Shown here: one piece after another, positions 3,579 to 39,624 of the stretch
How positions within the stretch are numbered: the first letter of the stretch is position 1
Layout: every line of letters starts with the position of its first letter
From: Aquanectria penicillioides
Taxonomy: Eukaryota; Ascomycota; Sordariomycetes; Hypocreales; Nectriaceae
Direction: 5' to 3'
Assembly (NCBI GenBank): GCA_003415625.1
Contig: PYIU01000010.1
Span: forward strand, 2,416,501 to 2,480,500
DNA length: 64,000 nt
Program-made: the position numbers and the translations under genes
Notes under the pieces: generated by a model
What the model was told of the DNA's origin: nothing
Databases searched by the model: none
The model's input: only the letters and a program-made list of their open reading frames with translations

Positions 3579-6500
3579 TTTATAAAGAATTTAAAATAAA
3601 GCTAAATAATGCAATAAAATAGCTAAAATTAGCTAAATATATTAAGATTAATATTATAAAAGATATTTCTATATAAGCATTTATTATAAAAGTCTTTATA
3701 AAAGAGTAAGCTTTTAGCTATATAGCTAATATTTAGCTCCTTTTTATAGTCTATATAAAACTAAATCTAAAGCTAAAAGTGCTTTATTTAGCATTAATAG
3801 TATAAAATATAAAATCTTTATTCTTAAGGGCAATTAATAAAAAGTAATATTAGCTTAAAGATAAGCTTTAAGCTATACCTTAAGGGGTTAATAGACCTAG
3901 CATAAAGAAGGCATTTATTGCTAATAAAAGCAATAGATTTAATAATGCAATTAAAAATAAAGAAGTGCATTAAGAATGCTAAAGTAAAGAAAACCATTTT
4001 AATAGATAGTACTAAACTATACCTTTAAAGCGCTTTAATAACTAAAAAACTTAATATAGAAACTTAACCTTAAAGAAGCCTAAAATGGATTAATAGAAGA
4101 TAAAACCTTAATAGAATAATTAATTATATAAATAATAAAGAAATAATAACTATAATATATATATATTTACTTAAAAGTAAAATAATAGGAATTAACTGTC
4201 TTTATAAAGATTTAATTAATATTAATATTAAAAGGAAGCCTTAAATAATAAAGCCAATCTTTTAGAGGTTTAGCTATACTATAATAATAAAGGATTCTAT
4301 TAAAGATATTAAGAACTATTAAATAGTAAATATATATTAATAGAAAAAGGGAATAATTTTAATAAATTATTAAAAGGTTCCTTTATTAAAGAGAATAAAA
4401 ATAATTTAGCTTTTATAAAAGTCTATTATATAAATAAAAAAAAAATAAAGAATATAAACTTTATACTAAAAATAGATTAAATTATTAAAGCTATAAATAA
4501 ACTTAACTTTTATTAATATTTAAAAAAAAGAGTAAATACTTACTTTAAGCTATTAATTAAGTTTAATAATAAAGGCAATTCCTATAATATTTATATTAAT
4601 ACTAAAACTTTAATAGTTTTAATTAATAAAAAATAGTTAAAAGCCTATATAATAAAAGTAATATAAAAGCAATAAGCCTTAAAGAGAGTAAATAGAGTTA
4701 ATACTAATATAAAAATCCTAAAATTAACTATTTTTAACTTCTATATACTTAAAATTACTAAAAATAAAAAAGTATTTATATATTTTATAATAACTATAAA
4801 TATTATAAAATAATTAAAACCTAAAATATTAATAAAAATAAACTTTCTATTTAAGTATAAAGCTAAAGTTAATTTTATTAACCCTAATATTATATTTTAT
4901 TTAGCCTATAATATAATCTTTAGGGTAAAAGTATTTTAAATGCATTAAAAGAACTTTATTAAAATAGTAATTAATATAAATATAATAGTAATTGCATTAA
5001 AGGAGATTGCTTTTATTTAAGCTAATTAAAAGAACCTTTTTAACTTTAGAGATACCTAAAGAAATTTAAAGGCCTATTACTTTTAATTCTTTTATAGTGC
5101 TATTTTTAATATTATAGTAAATAAAACTACTTTAAGACTAGTTTAAATTTATAATGCTAGTAATAAGAAGCTAGTTATAAAATAGTAATAATAAATAGAA
5201 TAAATTATTAATTATAATAAGAAAAAAAAGCTAATTATATTGGATTAAATAAAAGTATTTTTAGCCTATAGAAAAAGAAATTTAATTTTATAGAAGGATT
5301 TTTAGCTGCTATAAAAGGGAATAATCTATTAAAAGAAAATAAAGGATTCAATCTATTTAAGGTTAATACTAGCACTTTAAGCTATAGGATTTTTAGACCT
5401 AAAGATATCCTTAATATTAAGAATAAATATAGAGTATATATAGCCTATTTAAATTAAGCAATAGTAAAAAGGATCTATAATATAATAGATAAATATAATA
5501 TTTATAGGGATAAAGGGATTATTTCTATACTTAAGGAAATAAAGATATAAATAGATTTAATAGATAGATAGTAAAACTAAAAATATATAGTTAGGAAATA
5601 TCTATTAGGCATTAAAGACTATACCTTATTAAATAAAAAATATAATAAGCTATAAGCAAAAGGTAAAATAAAACTAATAGATTAATTGGCCTTAATAGTA
5701 TGCCTTACTTTTATTATTTAAAGAATAGTAAATAGTAAAAGGAAAGGGAGAGTTATAGTTAATTTATAATTGCTTAATTAACTAGCTATACCTAATGCCT
5801 ACCCTTTACCTAACTAATCTAATATTATAGCTAATATAAGGGGCAAGAAATTTTACTTTATAATAAATAGATTAGGGTTTTTTTACTAGCTATCTATCTT
5901 AAATGCCTATAGAAACTATATAGTTATTATATTTAATAGAGGACTTAAGGTTTCTAATATTATATTAATAGAATTTAAAAATGCATTAGTATTTATATAA
6001 AGGTTTATAAACTGACTTTTTAGGAAATATAGATATTTTATATAAGCCTATATTAATAATATAATTATTTTTTTAATACCTTAAATAACTATTTAAAGCA
6101 TTTAAAAATTATTTTAAGGTTAATATAGAATAATAGGCTATAAATTGCAATAAAGAAATCCTTCTTTAAATACCCTATAGTATAGCTATTAAGTTTTATT
6201 ATTAATAGTAAAGGAATTTATAAAATAAGCAATAGATTAAAGGCATTTATAAAAATAATCTTTTTAAAGAACCTATTAGCACTTAAAACCTTTATTAAAA
6301 TAGTAGAATATCTATAGTAAGGGATTCTATAGTATAACATTTAAATCTAAACTCTATAAATATAAAAAATAGCAATATTATAGTAAGTTAAAAAGTAGTA
6401 ATTAATTCTAACTAAACTATTAAAATTAACTTAAAGGAAAGAAGCAATAATTTAAATATTTAAACTAATAGAAAAAGAATTAAAAGCATTTTAAGACCTA

Positions 6501-9500
6501 AAAACCTTTTTAAGAATGCAATTCCTTCTCTATTATTACAATTTAATAAAGCCTTTATTTTTTAAGCTAAATACATATAAAAATGGATTTAAGTTATATA
6601 TCTTTTAGCTCTATAGGGATTAAAATAAAATTAGCATTTTAGGCAAAAATATTTTAGCTACTTAATTAAAACTAATACTATTCCTTTTAAGGTTAACTTT
6701 TTTAATAGAATAAGGCTATAGTTCTATTTAGGCAAAAGTAATAGTAATTACTTAAGCTATTAAAAAGCTATAGAAAATAGTTTAATTTAATTACAATTTA
6801 ATTAATATTATAATAGACTATATTGCTATAAAAAGGATTATAATGCATACTTCCCTTAATATAATAAACCTTAATAAAGCTAACCTAAAGCTTATTAAGA
6901 TCTTTAATTATCTCTTTAGATTTAACCTAAAAATATTCTATATTCTTAAAACCCTTAATATAGTTCTAAATGCTCTTTTAAAGCTATTAATAAAGAAATT
7001 ACTTTATTAGCAAGCTATAAATAGCTGTTTTAATAAGCTAAATACTAAAGCTAATATAGCAAAAGTTAATACAGTTAAAATTGCAATATTACCTAAATTC
7101 TATAAGGAAATACTTAAGGGATATAATAAGGATTTAAAACTTAATAAAATCTATATTTATATTTAAGGGATTTAATAAAATAATGCTTAAAACCTATAGA
7201 AAAAGTAATATATAAACCTATTTTGCCTATAGAAGCTAATAGAAAATAGATTGCTTTATTATATAGATTATAAAGGGTAAAAAAGACTTTATATTTTTAG
7301 GCTAATAATTAAAACTATTCTTATAACTATTTATAATAACTTATAGTATACTAAAATCTTTAAGATTTTATATAAATTAAGCTATATCTATTTTTATAGA
7401 ATAAGTAAAACAGTAAGGAAGTTTATTATATACTATTTAATATATAGAGAGAATTTAATAAATAAAAGACTATTAATAGATAAACTAAAGTTAATTTCTA
7501 TAGTTCTATAACTATTTTATACTATTGCATTAAACTTTATAACTAACCTTCCTAAAGTTATATTTATAGATATAGTATAGGCAATCCTAAACTATAATAA
7601 GCTAGATTAGCTATACTTAATAAACTATTTATTTTTAAAGAAAACTATTTTTATATTAAAGCATTTAATATATACTATATAGAATTAAGCATTTATTTTA
7701 CTAAAGGTATTGCTTTTATATAATTAGGGAATATCTATATATATTTTTAGCAATTAAAACTTAAAGTTTATAAGCAGTATATAAAGAGCTATATTAGCCT
7801 TTCTTAATATAAGGGTCCTTATATTTATTATATATTACTTTTAAACTAATAGTATATCTAAAAGAAAGAATTAAATAATAGAAATTATAATGCAATATTA
7901 TACTACTATAAAGCTAAATATACCTTAAATATAGGCACTTCTAGCAATTTAATATAACTTAAATAATATAATTGCCTTAGCTATAAATTGCTTATTAAAT
8001 AAACTACTATATAGTTTTAAACTAAAAATAGTTATTAAATTTACTACTAAAAGTAAGGTTATTAATTAAAAAGCTAATAGAATTGCACTAAAGATCTTAT
8101 ATAAATTATACTTATAGAAAGCATAACTTTTAATAGATATAGTAGCTATACTATTAAAAATTTAATATAATTAATATTATTAATTAATTAAAATTAATAA
8201 AAAAGATATTATTTACCTATAGCTATATAAAGAATATTACTTACTAAAAAAACTAAAGTATAAATAGTCTTTTACTAAAGCTAGACCCTATAAAGTAATC
8301 TATAAAATCTATAGTTAAGCTATTAAACTTAACTTTTTTTTATATTAGTAAATGCATTTAATAATCTTTATTACTTAAATATAGAAATTAAAGTAAAGGG
8401 ATAACCCTTTTAATTATATATTGCTATTACTATTAGCCATTAAAATTAATAGGAATAAAGCAATAAGCTAATAGAAAGTAAATAGAATTATTTAATAAAA
8501 GATCTAATAGTATAAATAGAGGCTAATGCATTACTTTTTATTGCAATAGAAAGAATATACTATTAAAGATAATAAATAAATAAATAAAATTAAATTAAAA
8601 GAAAATACTTTTAACTTTATTAATAAATACCTAACTATTAACTCTATACTATAAGAAAAAGAATATAAGAAAAAAGGTTAGAAATTGCTATAGGGTATAG
8701 TAAACCTAATATTTAAATAGCTAAAAGCTGCCTATTAATTTTTACTATTATAAGAAAATTCTCTTTTATATATTTACTATTTAATTTAAAAGGATTTAAT
8801 ATAAAAGTAGCTAAATTCTATAAAAAAGGGAATATTTAAAATAAATTAATAGTAATTTATAATTAGCTTATTTAATATATAATTAAAGTAATTAAATAAA
8901 GTAAATAACTAAGCATTTATATAGTATAAAGGCAATTACTATAGCTTAATATATCTCTTTTAACTTTTTTAATTTTATATAATCTTTATTTTCTATTTTT
9001 ATATATAGCCCTATATTTTATTAATTTTAATAGTATAAGTGCTAAAATCTATTGCCTATTAAACTTTTTAGCTTTTCTTCTTTATTTTATATAAATATTT
9101 AATTGCTATAAGAACTATTATCTATACTATTAAATTTAATATCTTTACTATTAGTTTTAGCCCCTTTACTATTAATTTCTATACTTTTTTTACCTCTCTT
9201 TTATAAATATTTATATAATAGCTAGCCTAATACTTACTATATTAAATCTAGCACCCTTACTGCTAATCTTAGCTTCTTTATTGCTAATTTTAGCATCCCT
9301 TTATAGCTTAAGCCCCTTTAGCTTTAGACCTTTTACTATTAGCTAATAGCAATATAGAACTTACTGCTATATATTAGTAAATTAAATAGTAAAATAATAT
9401 ATATAAAGCTTATTTTATTAAAAAAAAGTATAAATCTATTAATTAATTTATTAAAAACTATATTAATTAATCTTTCTTTAATAAATATAGAGTTTTCTAT

Positions 9501-10265
9501 AATAATATTTTATTTAAACTTTTAAATAAGCACTAAATATTATTTAATAGATACAATAGGCTTATTAATATTTATAATAATAGCAGCAATAAATCTAATA
9601 TTAATATTAATAATTCTAATACTATAATATTATTAACTATAGTATTTTTAGCAAAAGATAATAACTTAATAGAATCTATTTATAACTTTACTATTAATTG
9701 CAATTAAATTAATAATAATATTAGCCTTTTTAGTAAAGACTTAAATACTAATATATAATAACTATAGAATAATATAAATGCATTAATATAAATAAAGGAA
9801 AAAGGGGATTTAAATTAAAATTAAGAGTTTTTATCTTTAAATAATAAAATAGAGAATAAAAATAAAGAAAATAATAAAGAAATTATAGTAATTAATAAAG
9901 GATATACTAAATATAGTAAAAAGAGTATTAATAGAAAGACCTTAAAAGAAAAGACTTTTATTTAATATAGTAGAAGGGATTTAAATGCTTAAAATGCAAA
10001 TTAAAATCTTATTGCTTTAACTACTAGCACTTATAAAGGATTTAAATAAAAGGTAAATATTCCTATAAATAGAGATTTAGCCTATTATAAATATAATAAA
10101 TTAATAAAAATAGTAAAGTTAAAGAATAATAGAATTAATACTAAAGGCACTATAATCTATAGTAATTACTATCTTTTAAATAAACTAATTAATAGGCTAA
10201 AAAGCTAAAGGCAAAATAATGCATTTATTTGCCTTACTTATAACTTTTAGCTTTATGGCCTAAAG
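3579..10265 (+). mobile_element. Ty3/gypsy retrotransposon fossil, left palindrome arm
   Basis: Translating through the stops on the plus strand gives gypsy pol in the usual order. Reverse transcriptase spans roughly 5.6-6.6 kb; its YxDD box is decayed to Y-I-N-N at about 6,049-6,060. Integrase zinc-binding and core regions lie at about 7.3-8.1 kb, the His-His-Cys-Cys finger showing His and Cys codons changed to Tyr. Gag would occupy 3.6-5 kb. No usable start or frame remains. The whole segment is repeated in inverse orientation at 11,917-18,608 with almost constant coordinate sum (22,182-22,187), so few indels separate the copies. LTRs were not identified. Confidence 0.82.
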
Positions 10266-11916
10266 TATTATAGCTTATTTATTCTATTATAAGTAGTATT
10301 AAAAGTAACAGTCTTAATAATAAAACCATTATACTACTTATCTTATAGTTATACTAAAAGGTATATATATAAGCTTTATAGTTACATTAAAATTAATAGC
10401 TTAGCTATAGGTAATAATTAATTATATATTAAACTCTACTTAACTTATATCTTAAGACTATTATAATAATAGGTCCTAAAGTATAAATATACTTATAGAT
10501 TATTAACCTTTATTTAAGAGATATAAAGGCCAACTATTTAAAAGTACTATCTATTATATAATCTATATATATAATAAATGCCCTTAAATTAAAAAAAAGA
10601 CTACTATCTATAGTAATAAAAACTAAAGTTAAGTTCTTAATATTTGCCTTATATTTGCTCTATTTATTAATTATTTTTATTTATTCTATATAACTATAGT
10701 ATTTAGCTATTAGCTTTTAAATTTCTAATAAAGTTCTTAAATCCTTATATAAATCTATAGATTTCCCTATTATTTCCTTTTAATTCTATATAACCTTAAT
10801 AGAATCTAGCTAGCCTAATAGCTATTAGTATTAATATATAAAGTATTAAGAATACAATTAATTAAATAAATTATTAATATTAATAATAGTAAAAAGGGAT
10901 CCCTTTTTATTAGGAGCTAACTTTAATAGCCTAATTGCTAATTCCTTTATTGCACTATTAGACTTATAGCACTTAAAGGAGCTAGCTATTATAGCCTTAT
11001 TAAATTGCTTCTTTTCTAAAAGAAAGTTACTAATAGACTGCAAATTTATATATTAATATACTGCATTATTTGCCTAAAGTATTAATAAAAGCACCTATTT
11101 TAATAGACTAAAAGTAAATATATAAAATAGTTAATTGCCTTTAGCCAATCTACCTTAAGAGAGTTTAAATTTAACTTAAGCTATAATAGTTTTAATTAGC
11201 TTAGCCTTATTGGCTGCTAAAAGAGCTATTAACTTAAATTTCTTTACTTTTACTATTTAAACTATTAATTCCTTAATCTTATTGTTTTAGTTATTACTAA
11301 TAGTATTAAAATAAATAATTAAATTATTAAAAATAAAGATATTAATAGCTTATTTCTTAACTTTATTAGCAACTTTATAGAATTTAATATTAATAGATTT
11401 AGTATTAGCCTTAAGCTGCTCCTTAAGTTAAGTAACTTTATTCTTTAAAGTCTTAATTTTAATTATAGCTTAATAGGCACTAATAGCTATATTAGCTATA
11501 ATAGCTTCTATAATAAATAAATTATTTTTAATAAAATAGTTATATTAATTTAATATATTAATATCTATTAAATAACTATACCCTATAGTAATAAAGTATT
11601 TAGCAATTAAAGTATTAATTGCACTATAAGGATTAATAAAAACTATAGCTATTGCCTTCTCCTTTTTAAGCAGCTTAGCTATAAAGTATTAATAGTTCTT
11701 TTAAAATTTATTATACTTACTATTTTAGTAAAAGGTAAAGGCATTTATAATAGCGGTTTTAATGCATTAAATAAGGCTAAATTCTACCTTAAAAGGCTTA
11801 AACTTAATATTAGTCTTTTTATTAATTTAATTATAGTATTAATTAATAACTTTTTTATACTTAATAAAAAGGTCTATTAAAGGGTAGGATTTATTAGGTT
11901 TGCTGCTAAAAGCACC
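10266..11916 (-). repeat. Palindrome spacer, inverted copy of 21,131-22,785
   Basis: This segment separates the two gypsy arms. Its sequence matches the reverse complement of about 21,131-22,785, including shared landmarks such as the BamHI-like GGATCC at about 10,906 and 22,141. Its first ~310 bp also occur directly at 20,820-21,130. On the minus strand at 10,858-11,043 lies the only long frame in the AT-rich block (61 codons). The same peptide, with substitutions, is readable on the plus strand at about 22,020-22,190, so it is a retroelement coding remnant and not an independent gene. Function unknown; possibly a gag-like region. Confidence 0.75.
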
Positions 11917-14900
11917 CTTTAGGCTATAAAGCTAAAAGTTATAAATAAAGTAAATAAATATATTATCTTGCCTTTAGCTCCTTAGCCTATTAATTAATTT
12001 ACTTAAAAGATAGTAATTACTATAAGTTATAATGCCTTTAGTATTAATTCTATTATTTTTTAACTTTACTACCCCTATTAATTTATTGTATTTATAGTAG
12101 GCTAAACCCTTATTTATAGGAATGTCTACCTTTTATTTAAATTCTTTATAAATGCTAATAGTTAAAGCAATAAGATTTTAATCTATATTTTAAGCATTTA
12201 AATCTCTCTTGCTATATTAGGTAGAAGTCTTTCCTCCTAAGGTCTTTCTATTAATACTCTTCTTGCTATATTTAGTATATTCTCTATTAATTATTATAAC
12301 CTTTTTATTATTTTCTTTATCTTTATTCTTTATTCTATTATTTAAAGATAAAAACTCTTAATTTTAATTTAAATCTCCTTTCTTTTTTATTTATATTAAT
12401 GCATTTATATTATCCTAAAGTTATTATATACTAGCATTTAAATCTTTACTAAAAAGGCTAATATTATTATTAATATAATTGTAATTAATAATAGAATTAT
12501 AAATAGATTTTATTAAATTATTATCTTTTATTAAGAATACTATAGTTAATAATATTATAGTATTAAAATTATTAATATTAATATTAAATTTATTACTGCT
12601 ATTATTATAAGTATTAATAAGCCTATTGTATTTATTAAATAATATTTAATGCCTATCTAAAAGTTTAAATAAAATATTATTATAAAAGACTCTATACTTA
12701 TTAAAGAAAGACTAATTAATATAGTTTTTAATAAATTAATTAATAGATTTATACTTTTTTTTAATAAAATAAGCTTTATATATATTATTTTATTGCTTAA
12801 TTTACTAATATATAGCAATAAATTCTATATTGCTATTAGCTAATAGTAAAAAGTCTAAAGCTAAAAAGGCTTAAGCTATAAAGGGGTGCTAAAATTAATA
12901 GTAAAAGAGCTAAAATTAATAATAAAGGTACTAGATTTAATATAGCAAGTACTAAACTAGCTATTATATAAATATTTGCAAAAAAAAAGATAAAGAAAAG
13001 TATAGAAATTAATAGTAAAGAGGCTAAAACTAATAGTAAAAATATTAAATCTAATAGTATAGGTAATAGTTCTTATAGCAATTAAATATTTATATAAAAT
13101 AAAGAAAAAAAGCTAAAAAGTTTAATAGGCAATAAATTCTAGCACTTATACTATTAAAATTAATAAAATATAAAGCTATATATAAAAATAGAAAATAAAG
13201 ATTATATAAGATTAAAGAAGTTAAAAAAGGCATATTAAATTATAGCAATTGCCTTTATATTATATAGGCATTTAATTATTTACTTTACTTAATTACCTTA
13301 ATTATATATTAAGTAAGCTAATTGTAAATTACTATTAATCTATTTTAAATATTCCCTTTTTTATAGAATTTAGCTACTTTTATATTAAATCCTTTTAAAT
13401 TAAATAGTAAATATATAAAAGAGAATTTTCTTATAATAATAAAAGTTAATAAATAGCTTTTAGCTATTTAAATACTAAATTTATTATACTTTATAGCAAT
13501 TTTTAACCTTTTCTTTTATATTCTTTTTCCTATAATATAAGGTTAGCAATTAAGTATTTATTAATAAAGTTAAAAGTATTTTCTTTTAATTTAATTTTAT
13601 TTATTTATTTATTATTTTTAATAGTATATCCTTTCTATTATAATAAAAAGTAATATATTAGCCTTTATTTATACTATTAAATCTTTTATTAAATAATTCT
13701 ATTTACTTTCTATTAGCCTATTGCCTTATCCCTATTGATTTTAATAACTAATAGTAGTAGCAGCATATAATTAAAAGGGTTATTCCCTTACTTTAGTTTT
13801 TATATTTAGGCAATAAAGACTATTAAATATACCTATTAATATAAAGGGAAGTTAAGTTTAATAGCTTAATTATAGATCTTATAGATTACCTTATAGGGTC
13901 TAGCTTTAATAAAAGACTATTTGCACTTTAGTTTTTTTAATAAGTAATATTCTTTATATAGCTATAAATAAATAATATTTTCTTTATTAATCTTAATTAA
14001 TTAATAATATTAATTATATTAAATCTTTAATAATATAGCTACTATATTTATTAAAAGTTATACTTTCTATAAGTATAATTTATATAAAACCTTTAGTGCA
14101 GTTTTATTAACTTTTTAATTAATAATTTTACTTTTAGTAGTAAATTTAATAACTATTTTTAGTTTAAAACTATATAGTAGTTTATTTAGTAAGCAATTTA
14201 TAGTTAAGGCAATTATATTATTTAGGTTATATTGGATTGCTAAAAGTGCCTATATTTAGGGTATATTTAGCTTTATAGTAATATAATATTGCATTATAAT
14301 TTTTATTATTTAATTCTTTCTTTTAGATATACTATTAATTTAAAAGTAATATATAATAAATATAAAAACCTCTATATTAAAAAAGGCTAATATAGCTCTT
14401 TATATACTGCTTATAAACTTTAGGTCTTAATTGCTAAAAATATATATAAGTATTCCCTAATTATATAAAAGTAATGCCCTTAATAAAATAAATACTTAAT
14501 TCTATATAATATATATTAAATACTTTAATATAAAAATAGTTTTCTTTAAAAATAAATAGTTTATTAAGTATAGCTAATCTAGCTTATTATAGTTTAAAAT
14601 TGCCTATACTATATCTATAGATATAACTTTAGAAAGGTTAATTATAAAGTTTAATATAATAGTATAAAATAGTTATAGAACTATAGGAATTAACTTTAAT
14701 TTGCCTATTAACAGTCTTCTATTTATTAAATTCTCCTTATATATTAGGCAATATATAATAAACTTCCTTACTATTTTGCTTATTCTATAGAAATAGATAT
14801 AGCTTAATTTATATAAAATCTTAAAGATTTTAGTATACTATAAGTTATTATAGATAGTTATAAAAATAGTTTTAATTACTAGCTTAAGAATATAAAGTCT

Positions 14901-17900
14901 CTTCTACTCTTTATAATCTATATAATAAAGCAATCTATTTTTTACTAGCTTCTATAGGTAGAATAGGTTTATATACTGCTTTTTCTATAGGTTTTAAGCA
15001 TTATTCTATTAAATCCTTTAGATATAGATATAGATCCTATTAAGTTTTAGATTCTTACTATATCCTTTAAGCATTTTCTTATAGAATCTAAATAATATTG
15101 CAATTTTAATTGTATTAATTTCTACTATATTGGCTTTAGTATCTAGCTTATTAAAACAGCTATCTATAGCTTGCTAATAGAGTAGTTCCTTTATTAGTAG
15201 CCTTAAAAGAGCATTTAAAACTATATTAAGGGTTTTAAAAATATAAAATATTTTTAGGTTAAATTTAAAGAGATAATTAAAGATTTTAATAAGCTTTAGG
15301 TTAGCTTTATTAAGGTCTATTATATTAAGGGAAGTATGCATTATAATCCCTTTTATAGCAATATAGTCTATTATAATATTAACTAAATTGCAGTTAGATT
15401 AAACTATTTTTTATAGCTTTTTAATAGCTTAAGTAATTACTACTACTTTTACCTTAATAGAATTATAGCCCTATTCTATTAAGGAAGTTAACCTTAAAAG
15501 AAATAGTATTAATTTTAATTAAGTAGCTAAAATATCCTTACTTAAAATATTAATTCTATTCTAATCCCTATAGAGCTAAAAGATATATAACTTAAATCCA
15601 TTCTTATATGCATTTAGCTTAAAAAATAAAGGCTTTATTAAATTATAATAATAAAGAAGGAATTGCATTTTTAAGAAGGTTTTTAGGTTTTAGAATGCTT
15701 TTAATTCTTTTTTTATTAGTTTAAATATTTAGATTATTGCTTTCTTCCTTTAAGCCAGTTTTAATAGCCCAATTAAAATTAATTACTGCTCCTTAACTTA
15801 CTGTAATATTGCTGTTTTTTATATCTATAAAGGTTAAATTTAAATATTATACTATAGAATCCCTTATTGTAGGTATTCTACTATTTTAATAAAGGTTTTA
15901 AGCGCTAATAGGTTTTTTAAAAAGGTTATTTTTGCAAATGCCTTTAATCTATTGCTTATTTTATAGATTCCTTTACTATTAATAATAAAACTTAATAGCT
16001 ATACTATAGAGTATCTAAAGAAGGATTTCTTTATTGCAATTTATAGCCTATTATTCTATATTAACCTTAAGACAATTTTTAAGTGCTTTAAATAGTTATT
16101 TAAAGTATTAAAAAAGATAATTATATTATTAATATAGACTTATATAAAGTGTTTATATTCCCTAAAAAGTTAGTTTATAAACCTTTATATAAATGCTAGT
16201 GCATTTTTAAATCCTATTAATGCAATATTAAAAACCTTAAGTCTTTTATTAAATATAATAACTATATAGTTTCTATAAGCATTTAAAATAGGCAATTAAT
16301 AAAAAACCCTAATCTATCTATTATAAAGTAAAATTTCTTACCCTTTATATTAGCTATAATATTAAATTAATTAAGTAAAGGGTAGGCATTAAGTATAGCT
16401 AATTAATTAAGCAATTATAGATTAATTATAACTCTCCCTTTCCTTTTGCTATTTACTACCCTTTAAATAATAAAAGCAAGACATACTATTAGGGCCAATT
16501 AATCTATTAATCCTATTTTACCTTTTACTTATAGCTTATTATATTTTTTATTTAATAAAGTATAGTTTTTAGCATTTAATAGATATTTCCTAACTATATA
16601 TTTTTAGTTTTATTATCTATTTATTAAGTCTATTTATATCTTTATTTCTTTAGGCATAAAGATAATCCCTTTATTTTTATAAATATTATATCTATTTATT
16701 ATATTATAAATTCTTTTTATTACTATTTAATTTAAATAGGCTATATATACCCTATACTTATTCTTAATATTAAGGATATCTTTAGGTCTAAAAATCCTAT
16801 AGCTTAAAGTGCTAGTATTAACCCTAAATAGATTAGATCTCTTATTTTCTTTTAATAGATTATTCCCTTTTGCAGCAGGTAAAAATCTTTCTATAAAGTT
16901 AAATTCCTTTTTCTATAGGCTAAAAATACTTTTATTCAATTTAATATAATTAGCTTCCTTTTTTCTATTATAATTAGCAATTTATTCTATTTATTATTGC
17001 TATTTTATAACTAGCTTTTTATTGCTAATATTATAAATCTAAACCAATCTTAAAGTAGTTTTATTTACTATAATATTAAAAATAATACTATAAAAGGATT
17101 AAAAGTAATAGGCCTTTAGATTTCCTTAAGCATTTTTAAAGTTAAAAAAGTTCTTTTAATTAACTTAAATAAAAGCAATCTCCTTTAGTGCAATTATTAC
17201 TATACTTATATTAATTACCATTTTAATAAAGTTCTCTTAATATATTTAAAATACTTTTGCCCTAAAGATTATATTATAGGCTAAGCAAAATATAATATTA
17301 AAGTTAATAAAATTAATTTTAGCTTTATATTTAAATAAAAAGTTTATTTCTATTAATATCTTAAGTTTTAATTATTTTATAATATTTATAGTTACTATAA
17401 AATATATAAATACTTTTTTATTTTTAGTAATTTTAAGTATATAAAAGTTAAAGGTAGCTAATTTTAGGATTTCTATATTAATATTAACTCTATTTACTTT
17501 CTTTAGGGCTTATTGCTTTTATATTACTTTTATTATATAGGCTTTTAATTATTTCTTATTAACTAAAACTATTAAAGTTTTAGTATTAATATAAATATTA
17601 TAGGAATTGCCTTTATTATTAAACTTAATTAATAGCTTAAAGTAAGTATTTACTTTCTTTTTTAAATATTAATAAAAGTTAAATCTATTTATAGCTTTAA
17701 TAATTTAGCCTATTTTTAGTATAAAATTTATATTTTTTATTCTTTCTTTATTTATATAATAAATTTCTATAAAAGTTAAATTATTTTTATTCTTTTTAAT
17801 AAAAAAACCTTTTAATAACTTATTAAAATTATTCCCTTTTTCTATTAATATATATTTACTATTTAATAGTTTTTAATATCTTTAATAAAATCCTTTATTA

Positions 17901-18608
17901 TTATAGTATAGCTAAACCTTTAAAAGATTGACTTTACTATTTAAGGCTCCTTTTTAATATTAATATTAATTAAATCTTTATAAAGGCAGTTAATTTTTAC
18001 TATTTTACTTTTAAGTAAATATATATATATTATAGTTATTATTTCTTTATTATTTATATAATTAATTATTTTATTAAGGTTTTATTTTTTACTAATCTAT
18101 TTTAAGCTTCTTTAGGATTAAGTTTCTATATTAAGTTTCTTAATTATTAAAGCGCTTTAAAGGTATAGTTTAGTACTATCTATTAAAATAGTTTTCTTTA
18201 CCTTAATATCCCTAATGCACTTCTTTATTTTTAATTGCATTATTAGATCTATTGCTTTTATTAGCAATAAATGCCTTTTTTATATTAAGTCTATTAACCC
18301 CTTAAAGTGCAGCTTAAAGCTTATCTTTAAGCTAATATTACTTTTTATTAATTGCCTTTAAAAATAAAGATCTTATATTTTATACTATTAGTGCTAAATA
18401 AAGCACTTTTAGCTTTAAATCTAGTCTTATATAGACTATAAAAAGGAGCTAAATATTAGCTATATAGCTAAAAGCCTGCTCTTTTATAAAGACTTCTATA
18501 GTAAATGCTTATATAGAAATATCTTTTATAATATTAGTTTTAGTATATTTAGCTAATTTTAGCCACTTTATTGTATTATTTAGCTTTATTTTAAATTCTT
18601 TATAAAGA
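11917..18608 (-). mobile_element. Ty3/gypsy retrotransposon fossil, right palindrome arm
   Basis: This is the inverted partner of 3,579-10,265. The decayed catalytic box of reverse transcriptase appears on the minus strand at about 16,125-16,140, the mirror position of the left copy. Integrase-like sequence lies at about 14.1-14.9 kb and the gag side lies towards 18.6 kb. Sequence agreement with the left arm is visible at every point compared, and the differences are mostly transitions. All frames are destroyed. The two copies could be separate insertions or the product of an inverted duplication; sequence alone does not decide. Confidence 0.82.
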
Positions 18609-18746: not shown

Positions 18747-18751
18747 TTGGC
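18747..18751. repeat. Target-site duplication TTGGC, left copy
   Basis: The five bases directly before the left LTR are repeated exactly directly after the right LTR (19,389-19,393). Five-base duplications are usual for LTR-element integrases. This fixes the element ends to the base. Confidence 0.9.
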
Positions 18752-18896
18752 TGTAATAAATAGAGTGGCATGCCCACTTAGCCAATAGACTAAAAGATCA
18801 AGCAATTTAGGCACAATATGCCGGAATTATGCCACACAACTATATATAAAGGGCCTGATTGTTGCACATTTGTACGCACCCAGCGCTATCCTTACA
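18752..18896 (-). repeat. 145-bp LTR (3' LTR of the miniature element)
   Basis: Aligned without gaps to 19,244-19,388. I count 13 differences in 145 positions and all are transitions, many of them CpA/TpG to TpA, consistent with light RIP or related deamination after insertion. Confidence 0.92.
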
Positions 18897-19188
18897 ATTA
18901 TCCCCCCTCAATAGCAGCGCATCCCAAGCTATAATGCTGTATTATAGGGCCAAGCTACCCCTTCTATAACCTTTCCAGTGTGCACTTAAGGAAGCTAAGG
19001 TCTAAGATAAATGCCTATAGGCTAGCTTTATAGTATGCATCAACTTAAGTAGGCCGGTCCTCTATGCTTAGGGATATACAATAGATATTAACCCCTAAGG
19101 CTTAGTTGCAGCAGGCAATTGCACACCTGCCTTATAAGCCCAATGTAAGCATATAGTCGAACACTCCATTTATTCTGCCTTGCAGGTA

Positions 19189-19277
19189 GGATTCGAACCC
19201 ACAACCTCATACAGCCAAAAGACCTATATTGTGCCTAAATAATTGTAATAAATAGGGTAGCATGCCCACTCGGCCAA
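19189..19277 (-). promoter_or_regulatory. tRNA-like A and B box pair inside the miniature element
   Basis: On the minus strand an A-box-like TTGGCCGAGTGGGC (19,277-19,264, in the LTR) is followed 64 bases later by a B-box-like GGTTCGAATCC (19,199-19,189, in the interior). The GCC/GGC D-stem and the GTGGG/CCTAC T-stem can pair, as in type II tRNAs (Leu, Ser). No acceptor or anticodon stem can be formed, so this is not a working tRNA gene. It may be an internal RNA polymerase III promoter or a tRNA-derived segment. Confidence 0.5.
19226..19240 (-). other. Putative self-complementary primer-binding site
   Basis: Read on the minus strand this is ATTTAGGCACAATAT, beginning three bases after the 5' LTR. 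It is the exact complement of LTR positions 19,311-19,297 (repeated at 18,819-18,805), where the RNA is predicted to start. No match to a tRNA 3' end (which would begin TGG) is seen here. Confidence 0.75.
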
Positions 19278-19388
19278 TAGACTAAAAGATCAAGCAATTT
19301 AGGCACAATATGCCGGAATTATACCATACAATTATATATAAAGGGCCTGGTTGTTGCACATTTATATGCGCCTAGCGCTATCCTTATA
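19244..19388 (-). repeat. 145-bp LTR (5' LTR of the miniature element)
   Basis: Carries the TATA box at 19,340-19,331 and the predicted RNA start at about 19,311. It is followed by TTGGC at 19,389-19,393, the second copy of the target duplication. Confidence 0.92.
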
Positions 19389-19393
19389 TTGGC

Positions 19394-20819: not shown

Positions 20820-21130
20820 ATTATAGCTTATTTATTTTATTATAAATAGTATTAAAAGTAATAATCTTAATAATAAAACTATTATACTATTTATCTTATA
20901 ATTATACTAAAAGGCATATATATAGGCTCTATAATTATATTAAAATTAATAGCTTAACTATAGATAATAATTAATTATATATTAAACTCTATTTAACTTA
21001 TATCTTAAGACTACTATAATAATAGGTCCTAAAGTATAAATATACTTATAGATTATTAACCTTTATTTAAAAGATATAAAGGCTAATTATTTAAAAGTAC
21101 TATTTATTATATAATTTATATATATAATAT
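20820..21130 (+). repeat. 310-bp repeat, one of three copies
   Basis: Matches 10,266-10,580 in direct orientation and about 22,480-22,785 in inverted orientation. The pair at 20,820 and 22,785 therefore forms long inverted repeats around a 1.35-kb core. All three copies differ mainly by transitions. Confidence 0.75.
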
Positions 21131-24100
21131 AAAGGGTGCTTTTAGCAATAAACTTAATAAATTTTATTCTTTAATAGACCTTTTTATTAAGTATAAAGAA
21201 ATTATTAATTAATATTATAATTAAATTAATAAAAAGACTAATATTAAGTTTAAGCCTTTTAAAGTAAAATTTAATTTTATTTAATGCATTAAAACTACTA
21301 CTATAAATGCCTTTACTTTCTATTAAAATAGTAAGTATAATAAGTTTTAAGGAAACTACTAGTACTTTATAGCTAAGCTGCTTAAAAAGAAGAAGGCAAT
21401 AGCTATAGTTTTTATTAATCCTTATAGTGCAATTAATACTTTAATTGCTAAATACTTTATTACTATAGGGTATAGTTATTTAATAAATATTAATATATTA
21501 AATTAATATAATTACTTTATTAAAAATAATTTATTTATTATAAAAGCTATTATAGCTAATATAGCTATTAATGCCTATTAAGCTATAATTAAAATTAAGA
21601 CTTTAAAGGATAAAGTTACCTAACTTAAAGAGCAGTTTAAGGCTAATACTAAATCTACTAATATTAAATTCTATAAAGTTGCTAATAAAGTTAAGAAATA
21701 AGCTATTAATATCTTTACTTTTAATAATTTAATTATTTATTTTAATACTATTAGTAATAGCTAAAATAATAAGATTAAGGAATTAATAGTTTAAATAATA
21801 AAAGCAAAAAAATCTAAATTAATAGCTCTTTTAATAGCTAATAAGGCTAAGCTAATTAAAACTATTATAGTTTAAGTTAAATTTAAACTTTTTTAAGGTA
21901 AATTAGCTAAAGGCAATTAACTATTTTATATACTTACTTTTAGCCTATTAAAATAGATGCCTTTATTAATACTTTAGGCAAATAATATAGTATATTAATA
22001 TATAAATTTATAGCCTATTAATAACTTTCTTTTAGAAAAGAAGCAATTTAATAAGGCTATAGTAGCTAGCTCCTTTAAGCATTATAAGCCTAATAGTATA
22101 ATAAAGAAATTAACAGCTAGACCATTAAAGTTAGCTCTTAATAAAAAGGGATCCCCTTTGCTATTATTAATATTAATAATTTATTTAATTAATTATATTT
22201 TTAATACTTTATATACTAATACTAATAGCCATTAGGCTAGCTAAATTCTATTAAGGTTATATAAAATTAAAAAAAAATAATAGGGAAATCTATAGGTTTA
22301 TATAAGGATTTAGGAACTTTATTAAGAATTTAAAAGCTAATAGCTAAATACTATAATTATATAAAATAAATAAAAGTAATTAATAAATAAAATAAATATA
22401 AAATAAATATTAAGGACTTAATTTTAGTTTTTATTACTATAAATAATAGTCTTTCTTTTAATTTAAGGGCACTTATTATATATATAGATTATATAATAGA
22501 TAGTACTTTTAAATAATTGGCCTCTATATCTTTTAAGTAAAGATTAATAATCTATAAGTATATTTATACTTTAGGACCTATTATTATAGTAGTCTTAAGA
22601 TATAAGTTAAGTAGAGTTTAATTTATAATTAATTATTACTTATAGCTAAACTATTAATTTTAATATAACTATAAAGCTTATATATATACCTTTTAGTATA
22701 ATTATAAGATAAGTAATATAATAGTTTTATTATTAAAACTATTACTTTTAATATTACTTATAATAGAATAAATAAATTATTATACTATAATTATTATACT
22801 ATTATATAGCTATAAATAGAATAGCTTTATTAAATAGGCAAACTATATAATTTAAAAGAAAGCAAAAAGTATAATAATAGCAATAAATATCCCTTTTAGG
22901 TTATAAAAAGAGATTATTTTTATAGTTATATATATTGCTAATATTATAGCAATAAAGTTACTAAACTAAAAGACCCTTTATAAAGTTTACTTTATAGATT
23001 TAATCCTAAAAAAGAAATATATATTAAGCATTAAGTATTTATAGATTTTAAGGTTAAAGGCATTTATTTATATTAAATAGAAAAAGCATAATAAATCTAA
23101 AAAGATACTGCCTTATAGTTAAAAAGAAATCCTTATAGAATTTTAAAGAATTAAAGTATATAGAATTTAAAACCTTAAAATAAAGAAAGTTATTATAATA
23201 ATATATATAGTATTTTATAAGCCTATTTTATTGCTTATAGCAAAAGGTAAAGAGATTATTTAATTATAGCTAAAAGAAGTATTTAATAACTTTAAGAAAT
23301 ACCTTATAATGCTAATAATAGCTATAAAGAAGTAGATTCTAGCCGCCTGCATTAATGCTAATCTAGCTATAGTTTATAATGCCCTTAACTAGCTAAATGC
23401 CAACCTTTAAAGAAAGGCATTCTTTAAGAAGATTTATGCCTTTATTAATAAAGGTATACTTAAATTTATTTTAAAGAAGGAATTATTAAAAGGCAAAAAA
23501 CTACTTATAGTAAAATAAATAAATTAATATAAAAAAGATAAAAACAATATAATAGTTATATATAAAGCTTAATTTATAGTATATAGCTTTATGCAAAAAA
23601 AAGGCATTAATTACTAAAAGACCTTTTTCTTTACTATAAGAGCTAATTCCTAAAGGATACTATTTATTTATACTATATAAACTAAAAAGAAGCTATTATA
23701 AAATAATATAATTATAGTATACCTAAATAAAGAGCTAAAAGAAAATATCTATATTATAACTTTCTCTTTATTTAATAAGTTCTTTAAGGATCTAAAGTAT
23801 AAACATTTAGCTAAAAAAGTAAGCTATAAATAAGGCATTAAATATATTATATAGTTACTTATAGCTTTATATAGCCTTAAGTAAAGTGCCTAATAGTAGC
23901 AAAAGAAACTAAAGAAAATACTTAATAAATTAAGCCTTAAAAGGCTATAAAGCAATACTATAGTCTATATAGATTAAATAAAAAAGATTATTATAGCTAT
24001 ATATATAGATAATATACTTATAGTTATTAATAATAATAAAAATATAAATACCTTTATTAATAAATTTATATAAAAAGTAAAAATAAAATTACTTAAATTT

Positions 24101-26346: not shown

Positions 26347-29014
26347 ATGGACCTCAATGATGGATGTGATGCCATCGGTTTCCAAACCGGGGGTGCTCCC
26401 GAAACCGCTACGACGAGCCACATGAGTAAGTTTCCAAGTTCGCAGATCTCAATTCCCAGAGTGATTGACAGATTTCCAGCCCGTGACCGGATTGAGCCCA
26501 GAGAAGATATCAACTCCTGCTACAAGTGTGGTCAAGACGGCCACATTTCCCGCAACTGCCCTATCAATGGCGTCGCCGGCCTGGCTACCGAGTGCTACAA
26601 GGTTATTATTGCCCGCGTTTGCGCCACGGAAGATTTTCTCTAACCAAAGCAGTGCGGCGAGATGGGCCACATTGCTCGCAACTGCAACAACTCCTCTTAC
26701 TCCAATAACTACGGTGATGGTGTTGGCTTCAGCGGTGCTGGCAAGACCTGCTACTCCTGCGGCGGCTACGGCCACACTTCTGGTGGGTTGCATCAGCTTC
26801 ATTCAAATAAATCGGACTAACTATGGCAAAGCTGAGTGCGTCAACGGCATGAAGTGCTACAATTGCGGCGAGTCTGGCCACTACTCCCGTCATTGCCTCA
26901 AAATTGCTTCTGCAACCATGGATGCACCAGGCCATGCAAATATAGGCTCCATACCTCTACCGAATCCATCGTCAGCGGCAAGCAATTCGTTGCAACTTGT
27001 TCGAATAAGCACCATGGCTGCAAATGTTGGACCCAATCCACGCCCCAGCTTCAACAAAGCATCATTACGCATAGCTGGAAACCTGAAAACAATGACTGAA
27101 GATTGGTCTCGGGAGGAATGGGACAATCGACGTCGTATTGTTCACTTCACAAGGATGAAAAGTAATTCTGCAATTTTTGCAAAATTCAAGGCTATTTCTA
27201 TCAATGAAATTCCAGTGAACGGTATATGCATCTCTTGCATTTGGTGGGCTGAGAGATCAGAATGCTGCGTTACTTCAGTCGACTTACTACGCCTAATCGA
27301 AAAGCTTATTGATCCAACTAATCGACTTGGTGTCGAGGAGAAGAACCGCATCCGCCGGAATCTAGAAGGATTCCGTCCATCGATTGTGTCCAAGCAAAAG
27401 GCCGAGACTGAGGAGTTCATGAAGCTGATCATTGATTTCCCACACCCAAAGCCCAGAAATATTGAGAAAGACATCAAAATATTTCCTTGGAATGTCCTTG
27501 AGCAAGCACTCAAAAAGATCATAGCGAAATACTCTGCAGTCCCTGCAAATTTTGGTTATGAATCAGGACAGTTCTTACCCCCAAACAATCGCTTCGAAGA
27601 TGTAGCCGAGGATCATACCAATTTACGCCATGAAGTTACTAGACAAGTTCCGGCCACGGATGCCAAAGATGCACAGCCTTTACCGATACGGACGCCGCCG
27701 ACGTCTGGTGTCGTGCCCCGGTCGGAGCGTGCAGGCTCTGTGAACTCCTCTGTGAGCGATACTGAATCATCGAGTACAGACACATTCGGTTCTCCGAACG
27801 AAATTAAATGCGCGAAAACGGATGAGATGCTTGAAAGATTGTTATCGGCCCTGCAACATTGGCTTTATAAAAGGATTGCCGAATGGCGGCATCAACAAAT
27901 CTCTTGTGCCTCAGGCTCTGAAACGAAATCTACCGAGACCAATTCTGGGCTATTACAAAGGAGCCCCCAAAAGCAAACTATCGGCAAGAGAGAGAGGAGT
28001 CAGCGGGATGAGGGAATGGACGAGGATGGTGTTGGGGGAAACAAGCGTGGCAGCCAAGGTCAAGACAGTTGTGTCGACTATACGGCGTTGAGATTTGCAT
28101 GTCCGTTCTTCAAGCACAACCCGCAGAGTTACCAAACCACTGAGTGGCGGAGCTGCTGCTGGCCAGGGTGGCCTACAGTTCACCGCGTAAAGTTTGTAAC
28201 CCCGTCTGTTATTCATTTATGCAATAGGCTCCAGCCTCAGCACTAACATGTATCTACTCAGAGAGCATCTTTACAGGCGACACACTCTGCCTGCATTTCG
28301 TTGCAGTCGGTGTTGGCAAGATCTCAAGTCTGAAGAACTCCTAGCCGAACACGCCCGAGCCGAGATTGTTTGCGAGATCCAGCCTTTGGAGCAACAGGAA
28401 GGCATAACCCGAGCACAGGAGATGTCTTTACGATCAAGAAAAAAACGATGCGGTGTTGTGTCGGAGGAACAAAAGTGGATCGATGTCTATAAAATTTTAT
28501 TTCCCACCGATGAGAAAATCCCTTCCCCATGTATGAGCTCAAGTCTATTTGATTGGTAGTTGTCTAACTCTTGATAGATCCCGAGCTTTGCCCAATAGAC
28601 TCAAGTGGTAGTGTAGAGTCAGGAGATCCTCTTGCACGATTTGAGGAATTTGCGAGGAATGAGTTCCCACGACGAATCCGCCCGGAGTTGGAGGGTTTAG
28701 TCACACGCACTATTGAGCAGACCGTCACTCCTGAAGCAATTACTACAATTGTTCAGACAGCGCTTCAAGGAATAATCAGGACGTTTCGTGAGGCAAGCGG
28801 AGTACAGGGTAATGGGACCGAGGTGACCTCCGACCAGGGTCCATGTGAACAAAATCACATAATTGGTGATGACTCTCTCCTCTCATTTGATGATTTAATC
28901 TCTAACCGGGAAATGGATGAGTTCTTGGAATTCGACTTCTCTGAGATCAGTACTTTAGTAGAGGACAAAAAAGAGACGGACTCGGGGTACGGTTCTGTAT
29001 TCAATCAATTTTAG
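26347..29014 (+). CDS. Chimeric regulator: CCHC zinc knuckles + DUF7082 (Medusa-type) + C2H2-type domain
   Basis: Five exons join in frame: 26347-26601, 26653-26782, 26832-28191, 28262-28530, 28578-29014 (816 aa). Introns are 47-70 nt. Residues ~60-190 carry three CCHC/CYSC knuckle units as in Gis2/CNBP-type RNA-binding proteins (CYKCGQDGHISRNC, CYKCGEMGHIARNC, CYNCGESGHYSRHC) plus a partial CYSCGGYGH unit. Residues ~235-380 match DUF7082, the conserved domain of Medusa-type developmental regulators (ICISCIWW, RRNLEGFRP, PKPRNIEKD). Residues ~560-680 are the ascomycete C2H2-like block (ACPFFKHNP, HRVKEHLYRRH, RCSRCW), followed by an acidic tail. The knuckle exon runs into DUF7082 without a stop. 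The start is uncertain; an ATG at 27,014 in CACCATGG context would give a shorter protein without knuckles. Likely nuclear. Confidence 0.72.
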
Positions 29015-37200: not shown

Positions 37201-39624
37201 TTTCTACCTGCGGCAAACGCCGAGGACGTCAAGGTCTACGCCGTCGGTCCAAGCTACTCTCATGCGGAAGTCAGGAAATCACCAGCGGTCGACGGCATGG
37301 TCAGACGCAACGCGCATGCAAAGGAGCTCCGGTATGTGACTAGCCTCAGCTCGGAGGAGACAGCTATTGCGAGCAAGATTTCAACGGTGTTTAGCCAACA
37401 AGTATGCGGGTTCGACTTGCTTCGAGCCAGCGGCAAGAGCTTTGTCATTGACGTCAAAGGATGGAGCCTCGCAAAAGATAACGGAGAATACTCTGAGCAT
37501 TGTGCCGACATCCTTGAGCGGTTATTGGTATTTCCGAAAGAAGTGGCGGTCATCGATAAGGGTAAGGAGGAGGAATCACCTATTCCGCCGCCAAAGCGTT
37601 CCTGGAAGCTTAAGGGCATTTTGTGTGCAATCCGTCACGCGGACCGAACGCCAACACAGAAACAAACGTTTACCTTTGACACTCCTGCTTTTCTTGAATT
37701 ATTCAAGGATCACCGGGAACATGTCTTGGTCAAAGGGGATGCATTGGCAGGCGTCGTCCATGCTCTAGACGTAGCCAAAAGTCAAGGAATCGGGCCCCCA
37801 GGAAGGATCAACGCCCTAAGCAACATCTTCACCGATCGGAGTCGCTGGGATGGTATAAAAGTTCAAATCAAGCCAATTTTGCGTAAGATGACTAAAGATG
37901 GCATGCAGCGTGAGGAGATGACGCGAACCTCGGATGAGAATATGGAGCCAAATGCCTCCGAAAAGGATGCGACAGTCAATCTAACACCGAAGAAGTCTGA
38001 CTCTCTACCCGGTGCAGCCGAGTCTCATTCTGCAATGGCAGCGAGGAGTCGGGCGTTGGATAAGCTGCAACTTATTGTCGAATGGGGCGGCGATCCGACG
38101 CATTCTGCCCGATATCAGGCTCAAGAACTTGGAGAGAGCATGCGAAATGACTTTATGGTACTAAACCCCGACATCCTGGACGAGGTATATGTGTACAGCG
38201 GCTCGGAGCGGAGTGTGACAATAAGTGCTCAGATCTGGGCCTCTGCCTTCCTCCTGTGCAAGGACCTTCCTGAAGACTTTATAGAAATACGCGAGGGCCT
38301 GCTGGACGATTCAAATGCGGGCAATGTTGAGATGGAAAGGATCAAAAGGAAGCTGGATGGCTTTCTGCAAAATGCTCATGTGTCGCCCTCGCAGCTGGCC
38401 TGGCCTGATGAGAGGCTCTCCGAGAAACTTGGGCCGGTCCAGGCAGAGATGTGGATTATGAAACTGATGATGTTTTACAGGGAAGTCAAGCAATACAACT
38501 ACCGTAGGCTCCATGGTGATTTTATGGCATTCTTTAACACAATCACCCAATCAGCCGAGGCGGAGAGGTCGCGGGGCGGAGATGGCACCGGGTTTGTCCT
38601 TTCCACCCCCCTGGCTCTCGCTCACCGTGACATTGCCAACCCTATCCAGGCTCGCTGGTGCTGTGGTGAAGCTGAATGGTTCTTTCATGAGCGGTGGGAT
38701 AAATTGTTCCAGAAAATTGGTGGCGAGGGAAAAGTTGTCCGGAACATTTCCGAACTCTACGAGACCATGAAGTTTGACGCCCTACACAACCGCCCGTTTC
38801 TCAAGGGTATATTTCTTCCATCCATGGGTATGCTGTCCGAGTATGAAAGCATGTTGGAAACAGTAGGAGCTCTGTTTAAAAGTCCAAGCAAAAGCAATCC
38901 TAGCGATGGCAAGGGTAAAGATGAGGATAACGGTGGTGGAACGGCCTCGAGCGCGATACGTGGTCGTTTTTTTCAACCGTTTTTGCTCAACAATCTGCGG
39001 CAAACCAGAGAAGCCAACCCCCCGAAGCAGCAATTTCACCTATATGAGGCAAGTTCACTGAGCAAGACCCAGGCGAACATGAAGTTTGAGCCGCTGTGGG
39101 AATTGTATCAGCTGGTCAAGTTGGTGTTCGATGCTATCCATCCCCAGGAATACGGCATCACAGGCAGCGAGAAGCTTGAGATTGGCCTGCTAACATCGCT
39201 GCCCCTCCTCAAAAAGATTATCGAGGACCTTGAAGAGATACAGACTTCCAAAAGCCCCAAGTCTTTCTTCTACTTCACCGAAGAGTCGCACATGTACGCT
39301 TTACTTAACTGCATTCTTGAGAGCGGCCTCGAAACTGAGATGAAGAGGAGCTCTATCCCCGAGCTAGACCATCTCTCGCAAATTTGTTTCGAAGTGTACG
39401 AATCCGAGACCATTGACGCCGATGGGATGAGGGTTGGAGGTCAAGACCCAACAGTTATGCACAGCATCAGGATCACCATTAGCCCTGGATGTCACATAGC
39501 TGATCCGCTTACTGTCCAGCTGGACAGCAAGCACTCGATCAGCTGTGCCACTCGAAGAAACTTGACCTCGCACGCCGACTTCACACAAGTGGTTCGCGCT
39601 TTGAGAGCTTTGGTTAGCGACTAA
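34218..39624 (+). CDS. Helical/TPR-like region fused to PPIP5K (VIP1/Asp1-type), one-base frameshift
   Basis: Exons 34218-34798, 34848-36208, 36299-36445, 36496-36517 and 36667-39624 give about 1689 aa if one missing base near 37,109-37,118 is allowed for. The first ~645 residues are helical, with TPR-like units at ~355-490 (RYQAAVEDLGEALKL, RYEEAIEILERVV). A well-formed intron (36209-36298, GTGAGT...CTAAC...CAG) then leads directly into PPIP5K (ILGICAMD, FGDKVILDE, VPTPKRLEVNRD). PPIP5Ks make and break inositol pyrophosphates (IP7/IP8). The ATP-grasp kinase half carries the frameshift and DVKG where the family has DVNG. The histidine-phosphatase half keeps RHADRTP and the C-terminal SISPG-like block. 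No separate ATG for a normal VIP1 N-terminus is seen, supporting the fusion. A 775-residue frame from an ATG at 37,297 would give phosphatase alone. Probably a divergent second copy of VIP1. Confidence 0.75.

Follow-up and report, generated by a model that had tools for sequence, protein, structure and literature searches.

The region analysed here is a 64,000-nucleotide stretch of the Aquanectria penicillioides genome (contig PYIU01000010.1, positions 2,416,501–2,480,500), hereafter the window. At window positions 18752–19388 lies a non-coding long terminal repeat (LTR) element of 637 bp, whose parts are all read on the minus strand. Direct reading and a repeat search place its 145-bp LTRs at 19244–19388 (5' LTR) and 18752–18896 (3' LTR); the pair is 92% identical over 143 nt, and across 140 aligned columns shows 13 transitions and no transversions. 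The target-site duplication (TSD) TTGGC stands beside each LTR, at 19389–19393 (5' side) and 18747–18751 (3' side), as read directly and checked by script. The internal region (18897–19243; 347 bp) is non-coding, as judged from genome matches and the list of reading frames: no stop-to-stop frame of at least 75 amino acids overlaps 18752–19388. It ends in a polypurine tract (PPT; GAGGGGGGA, 18901–18909; direct reading and family matches), which TAAT (18897–18900) separates from the 3' LTR. The 5' LTR carries a TATA box (TTTATATATAA, 19332–19342). An earlier, sequence-only reading of this DNA had described the 145-bp LTR pair, the TTGGC duplication, the PPT and the TATA box, and all four are confirmed in the window sequence.

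Immediately beyond the 5' LTR, a 3-nt spacer, ATT (19241–19243), is followed by a putative primer-binding site (PBS; ATTTAGGCACAATAT, 15 nt, 19226–19240), located by an inverted-match search and by copy alignment. This PBS is the exact complement (15 nt, 100%) of positions 19297–19311 within the 5' LTR, and that segment—hereafter the self-primer—starts at 19311, 29 nt past the initial T (19340) of TATATA, so that it comprises the predicted first 15 nt of the element's RNA. Both the complementarity and the TATA spacing had been noted before and hold; the PBS itself, formerly placed inside the 5' LTR, is in the internal region, 3 nt beyond that LTR. The last three bases of TAAT at the opposite end of the internal region (AAT) mirror the ATT spacer ahead of the PBS.

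A size below ~1 kb, LTRs within 100–250 bp, the lack of coding sequence, the TSD and the PPT are features of terminal-repeat retrotransposons in miniature (TRIMs). TRIMs are described as non-coding elements of <1 kb with LTRs of 100–250 bp and a PPT (PMC6934838), and plant TRIMs as having 5-bp TSDs (PMC3532108), all of which the window element has in common with plant and animal TRIMs (the 5-bp TSD with those of plants). It differs from them in its primer site: theirs is complementary to a tRNA or, in biv-TRIM, has not been identified, whereas that of the window element would pair with the element's own RNA. Since biv-TRIM, for which no PBS was identified, is also called a TRIM (PMC6934838), we keep the element among the TRIMs, although none of the sampled tRNAs matches its PBS over more than 6 nt.

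Further copies were sought across the genome that holds the window (53.8 Mb, 13 contigs). The LTR has at least 40 matches (all of the best 40 of 66 candidates) and the internal region 28, of which 18 span its full positions 1–347. A PBS pattern tolerant of the changes caused by repeat-induced point mutation (RIP) matched exactly at 25 places and with one mismatch at another; nine further places with three mismatches look by eye like AT-rich noise, and a reversed control pattern gave two. When the LTR end was joined to the PBS, 25 exact matches emerged—24 family copies plus one divergent copy, L127 (C10:2828155)—along with one more place at one mismatch (C1:1307875; the control also gave one). 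The PBS-bearing copies total 26, consisting of 25 and the divergent copy. The sequence-only reading was to be given up had no other copies turned up; many are present, and on this count it stands. At the far end, a degenerate pattern of PPT and LTR start matched exactly at 22 places, with one mismatch at a single place and with two mismatches at two others (including C10:446985). The 22 exact matches read GGGGGATAAT running directly into T(G/A)TAAG, although ATAATT was demanded by the pattern itself. The ATT spacer is kept in 24 of 25 aligned copies, the exception being L074b, which has a rearranged 5' LTR, and a TATATA-type box is present in most aligned LTRs (exceptions: L141 and the damaged L058 and L074b).

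Twenty copies with two LTRs were compared in detail. An exact 5-bp TSD flanks 16 of them; those of L072, L068 and L067 are inexact (4/5, 3/5 and 2/5, respectively), and the end of L075 was not located. Within-copy LTR identity ranges from 76.4% to 99.3%, with differences amounting to 275 transitions and 21 transversions. All 21 transversions are confined to L060, L061, L073 and L075, copies with shorter LTRs for which the 140-nt slices compared may overrun the LTR end. From this dominance of transitions, in an AT-rich region, we infer a fit with RIP. Nineteen single LTRs were also examined (seven, L080–L086; twelve, L132–L143), the latter set from an LTR-pattern search in which 100 of 273 places were listed and 67 were expected from the control. 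Exact 5-bp flanking repeats were seen by eye for five of the seven and five of the twelve, which suggests that ten or more of the nineteen are solo LTRs.

Several copies are unusual in structure. L074 (C7:2018800–2020600) is a tandem pair of TRIM units that apparently have one LTR in common, and the rearranged 5' LTR of its outer unit contains an inverted LTR piece. L076 (C11:44017–45393) has a Copia reverse-transcriptase match on either side, in two separate parts. Two candidate relatives, C6:980651 and C8:3879388, were rejected as AT-rich chance matches; C13:28491 is a truncated LTR.

The copies allow the pairing between self-primer and PBS to be followed through the family. In the least mutated copies, the LTR segment CACGTTGTGCCTGAAT and the PBS, there 16 nt long (ATTCAGGCACAACGTG), form a perfect 16-nt duplex with unpaired adjoining bases; L069 and L070, whose LTR identity (99.3%) is the highest, have such a perfect duplex. 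Tallied over 25 copies (26 were searched, and L074b was dropped for its rearranged 5' LTR), 359 of 400 pairs are Watson–Crick. The 41 mismatches are all transitions, with no transversions, and 15 of 16 pairs are intact in the window copy.

In the divergent copy, L127, both bases of one pair differ from the family by a transversion: primer position 4 is T instead of G or A, and PBS position 13, its partner, is A instead of C or T. When L127 is cross-paired with the family, a transversion mismatch results in 24 of 24 combinations each way (primer or PBS swapped); none was seen in 552 pairings of a family primer with another family PBS, nor in any of the 25 own pairs. Both sides of the duplex therefore appear to have changed together in the divergent copy, as judged from the aligned bases. 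Ten of the LTRs L132–L143 (all except L137 and L138) were compared as well. Six of them have C at primer position 4, a base from which T could arise by RIP. The divergent PBS pairs with five of these six free of transversions, L141 being the exception, and the remaining four LTRs are compatible with the family PBS.

Chance complementarity was assessed with mononucleotide shuffles, and RNA folding by structure prediction. Among 20,000 shuffled LTRs set against the 21-nt PBS region, none had a complementary run of at least 13 (largest, 12). Nine leaders were folded at two lengths each. The folds of L069, L070, L074a and L062 hold 16 of 16 pairs with a mean pair probability of 0.97–0.98, and those of L065 and the window copy keep 15. 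In the three copies tested for a Tf1-type leader, the primer:PBS helix alone exceeds chance.

Together, the 25-copy duplex, the joint difference of primer and PBS in the divergent copy, and the lack of a match among the sampled tRNAs support the interpretation of the sequence-only reading, namely that the element primes itself. We consider it very probable that the 5' end of the RNA, folded onto the PBS, serves as the primer in place of a tRNA. Transcription by RNA polymerase II (Pol II) would start at the TATA-directed site, at or beside 19311/19312, and the first 15–16 nt of the RNA, whose complementarity is seen directly, would pair with the PBS 3 nt past the 5' LTR. By analogy with Tf1, an RNase H-type cut after the duplex would free the primer, and its extension would proceed through U5 and R. 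The later stages, in which the PPT primes the plus strand and the element integrates with a 5-bp TSD, would then follow the ordinary LTR route, for which the LTRs, PPT and TSDs are present. Because the plus strand would copy the primer, the RNA 5' end would be the source of every new PBS, and the two could diverge over time without losing their match. This primer-copying model predicts a matched change such as that of the divergent copy.

A number of points weigh against self-priming. Firstly, the covariation consists of one base pair in one PBS-bearing divergent copy, and across about 120 other LTR sites L127 differs from three LTRs by 6–10 transversions; if each side takes one transversion, we estimate that the pair would match by accident ~1 time in 32. 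In addition, L141 fits neither PBS fully (one and two transversions). Secondly, 25 of 2,000 shuffled 637-bp elements hold an inverted match of at least 15 somewhere, palindromes included. For this reason the length of the duplex is in itself less telling than its place, and the case is carried by the place of the duplex and the shared changes more than by its length. Thirdly, not every leader folds as expected: L066 keeps 9 of 16 pairs, as do L077 and L078 in their longer leaders (15 and 14, respectively, in the short ones), and the Tf1 leader's two additional helices are not above chance in three copies (P 0.07–0.98). Fourthly, the RNA 5' end is placed by its distance from the TATA box, and the case as a whole is read from DNA sequence. 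Fifthly, the tRNA sample discussed below is incomplete (40 of 62 hits, with isotypes missing). Finally, no autonomous partner sharing the LTR, PBS or PPT was found, with C10:446985, C1:1307875 and 173 of the 273 LTR-pattern places outside the scope of the search.

The sequence-only reading had proposed looking for a full-length gypsy/chromovirus partner that shares the LTR and PBS. No such partner is present among the places listed, no search for RVT_1 (gypsy reverse transcriptase) or the chromodomain having been made; hence, kinship with the Tf1/sushi group is unsupported so far. The helper may have been lost, may have mutated heavily, or may show its likeness at the protein level only. Three candidates with LTRs ~7.2 kb apart (L057, L058 and L059) were rejected as autonomous partners, since they are TRIM copies split by nested Copia insertions. 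The inserts are ~6.7 kb long, with 215–226-bp terminal repeats of their own and 5-bp duplications (junctions read by eye), and lie at three different sites. That of L059 is in the opposite orientation and has an RVT_2 (Copia) match; the other two align to this insert at 88–89%, which is the basis for calling them Copia. The divergent copy at C10:2828155 was also rejected as a partner: it passes into a common AT-rich repeat after ~28–60 internal bases, and the ~10.7 kb beyond it yielded no convincing 3' LTR. A search for the integrase core returned three places, all under the cut-off, two of them within the Copia elements L144 and L145. These (C1:3.02 and 3.10 Mb) lie in stretches of 49–50% GC and have terminal repeats of 125 and 212 bp and a common GGTTATGAGCCCGG; their RVT_2 matches contain stop codons, and so they are not intact. 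Both were rejected as self-primed relatives: their first 40 internal bases contain no complement of at least 6 nt to the LTR, and they therefore at least do not share the self-priming trait.

Several alternatives to self-priming were weighed. The duplex may be a structural stem—acting in packaging, dimerisation or protection—rather than a primer, which we regard as improbable. A stable stem is predicted in most folded leaders, with a palindromic GCATGC in its loop, and structure alone would favour matched changes too. However, the stem sits at the place expected of a PBS and at the predicted RNA 5' end, and no other PBS was recognised in the element. Moreover, the ATT before the PBS mirrors the AAT before the 3' LTR, as if cDNA began at the duplex edge, albeit with a PPT side that is one base longer.

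Secondly, the PBS could bind a tRNA (at its 3' end or, as a half-tRNA site, within it) or some other small RNA, with the LTR complementarity being secondary. The tRNA survey gave 62 hits (the best 63 of 2343 candidates being considered), of which 40 were fetched; ARAGORN found a tRNA in all 40. The sequence-only reading would have yielded to a better tRNA match, and none exists among these 40: with CCA added, none has more than 6 nt of unbroken complementarity to the 21 nt that follow the LTR, versus 16 for the self-primer, and at most 7 of 12 bases of their 3' ends match the PBS, which has no initial TGG. The missing isotypes leave some room for a tRNA primer, and the host Copia elements L144 and L145 do seem to use another type of site, with their common GGTTATGAGCCCGG directly after the LTR; this sequence presumably resembles the complement of the initiator-tRNA anticodon arm. 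Yet a tRNA primer leaves unexplained both the 16-nt match at the TATA-predicted start and the joint differences of PBS and LTR, and we consider it very unlikely.

A third alternative arises from two promoter-like boxes. A box A-like sequence (TGGCCGAGTGG, 19266–19276) lies in U5 and a box B-like sequence (GGTTCGAATCC, 19189–19199; from the tRNA comparison) in the internal region, 77 nt apart in the window copy and 78 nt in eight other copies, with the PBS between them. Box A is identical to that of tRNA-Leu(UAA) L121, among 40 host tRNAs compared, and the 21-nt box B form of L070 is identical to the same tRNA at 20 of 21 positions (next best tRNA, 18/21). This arrangement of tRNA-Leu-like boxes flanking a PBS, with box A in U5, is previously unreported. 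A genuine tRNA in the leader was rejected, because boxes A and B alone match and Rfam reports no tRNA in the window copy. In a subfamily made up of L077, L078 and L060, the box B arm differs (GGTTCGAAC-type, with other flanks), as if the region had been exchanged.

The two boxes could drive the RNA that is copied, making the TRIM an RNA polymerase III (Pol III) element as proposed for Helenus, Ajax and Cassandra (TRIMp3). These likewise carry small-RNA-gene promoter boxes in a TRIM, and fungal Helenus has a 5-bp TSD (PMC10886601); they differ from the window element in that the tRNA-like sequence is within the LTRs and the PBS matches a tRNA, whereas here box A is in the LTR and box B is internal, so the TRIMp3 feature of a tRNA-like sequence inside the LTR is absent. 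The distance of 77–78 nt between the boxes compares with 66 in tRNA-Leu(UAA). In eight low-mutation copies, a run of four Ts lies 11–12 nt upstream of box A and the next is at the same place in the 3' LTR, leaving the stretch between free of such runs; the window copy has one extra run between the two. A Pol III start beside box A would, however, omit R and the self-primer from the 5' end; strong-stop DNA could then not jump to the 3' LTR, and because R is missing such an RNA would be unusable as a template. A start farther upstream would run into TTTT. Additionally, an Rfam search of the window copy finds no tRNA even with the threshold relaxed to E 10, and the TATA box is kept at Pol II distance in most LTRs. 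A Pol III origin of the copied RNA is, accordingly, very unlikely. There is perhaps a slim chance that the boxes serve alongside self-priming, the TRIM having in addition a split Pol III promoter of tRNA-Leu type astride its primer site, with one polymerase for the genome and one for the primer. In that case the Pol III RNA would be about one LTR-to-LTR unit, ending just past the second copy of the self-primer, and this second copy could pair, in cis or in trans, with the PBS of a genomic RNA made by Pol II.

Lastly, a chance inverted repeat between decayed LTRs, which the AT-rich surroundings and the whole-element shuffles might favour, we regard as refuted by the copies: 26 bear the PBS, the youngest pairs have a perfect duplex, 16 of 20 TSDs are exact, and none of the 20,000 LTR shuffles matched the PBS comparably.

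The TRIM lies close to other repeats in the window. Just before it are two AT-rich repeats of 6.7 kb (3579–10265 and 11917–18606), 91% identical and inverted, and positions 1–25000 contain four frames of at least 75 amino acids only. A repeat at 10394–10576, 20947–21129 and 22474–22656 has a 183-bp core with at least 42 matches in the genome (40 of 100 candidates scored). In several cases core copies are ~9.9 kb apart; the spacing is 10.55 kb across the window and 11.1 kb at C6:965568–976674, and the excess over ~9.9 kb roughly equals the length of the TRIMs, one or two in number, found between the core copies. The gene-rich part of the window encodes a DUF7082 protein with a zinc knuckle (26465–28246), a His_Phos_2 protein (37297–39624), a sugar transporter (47326–48228) and an arabinofuranosidase B (55047–56567). 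The His_Phos_2 protein is ~50% identical to its best matches, which bear VIP1-type names. Among the 120 of 1406 hits listed for residues 100–500 of one gene product, ascomycete names predominate, with identities of 42–51%.

Self-priming is known from larger elements. The PBS of Tf1 is complementary to the first 11 nt of its RNA (PMC7175516), that of Tj1 matches the 5' LTR (PMC4600332), and a list of self-primed elements is available (PMC6934838). Like Tf1/sushi and other self-primed fungal elements (Tf1, Tf2, Tj1, Tosmo1–3, Maggy, Skippy, Cft-1), the window element would have a PBS that complements the RNA 5' end; unlike the Tf1/sushi group, it is 637 bp long and gene-free, with a duplex of 15–16 rather than 11 nt. 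The two further helices of a Tf1-type leader (PMC10085805) were not detected in the three TRIM copies examined. Self-priming is also predicted for the plant TAR lineage of Copia (Houba, Osr-1) and for Tcn1 (PMC6317226), but these encode polyprotein domains and are not miniature. Fungal GalEa Copia elements, too, have no tRNA-type PBS; they instead have a local hairpin after the LTR, and their authors found no LTR complement (PMC5445492). Miniature LTR elements do occur in another ascomycete, Cochliobolus heterostrophus, with nine TRIMs tied to Copia and Gypsy families; neither 'PBS' nor 'primer binding' appears in that text, so that priming is not described (PMC4112212). The claim that no described TRIM is self-primed is consistent with our finding no such description in the full-text literature searched, most subscription papers lying outside its scope.

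The primer site usually described for TRIMs is complementary to a tRNA. If the present interpretation is true, a self-primed TRIM would need no tRNA, and could change its primer and PBS together. Its small size and natural primer and PBS variants make two questions testable: whether self-priming can proceed without a full Tf1-type leader, and whether a helper has to be self-primed as well. Such an element would show which signals a retrotransposon parasite really needs.
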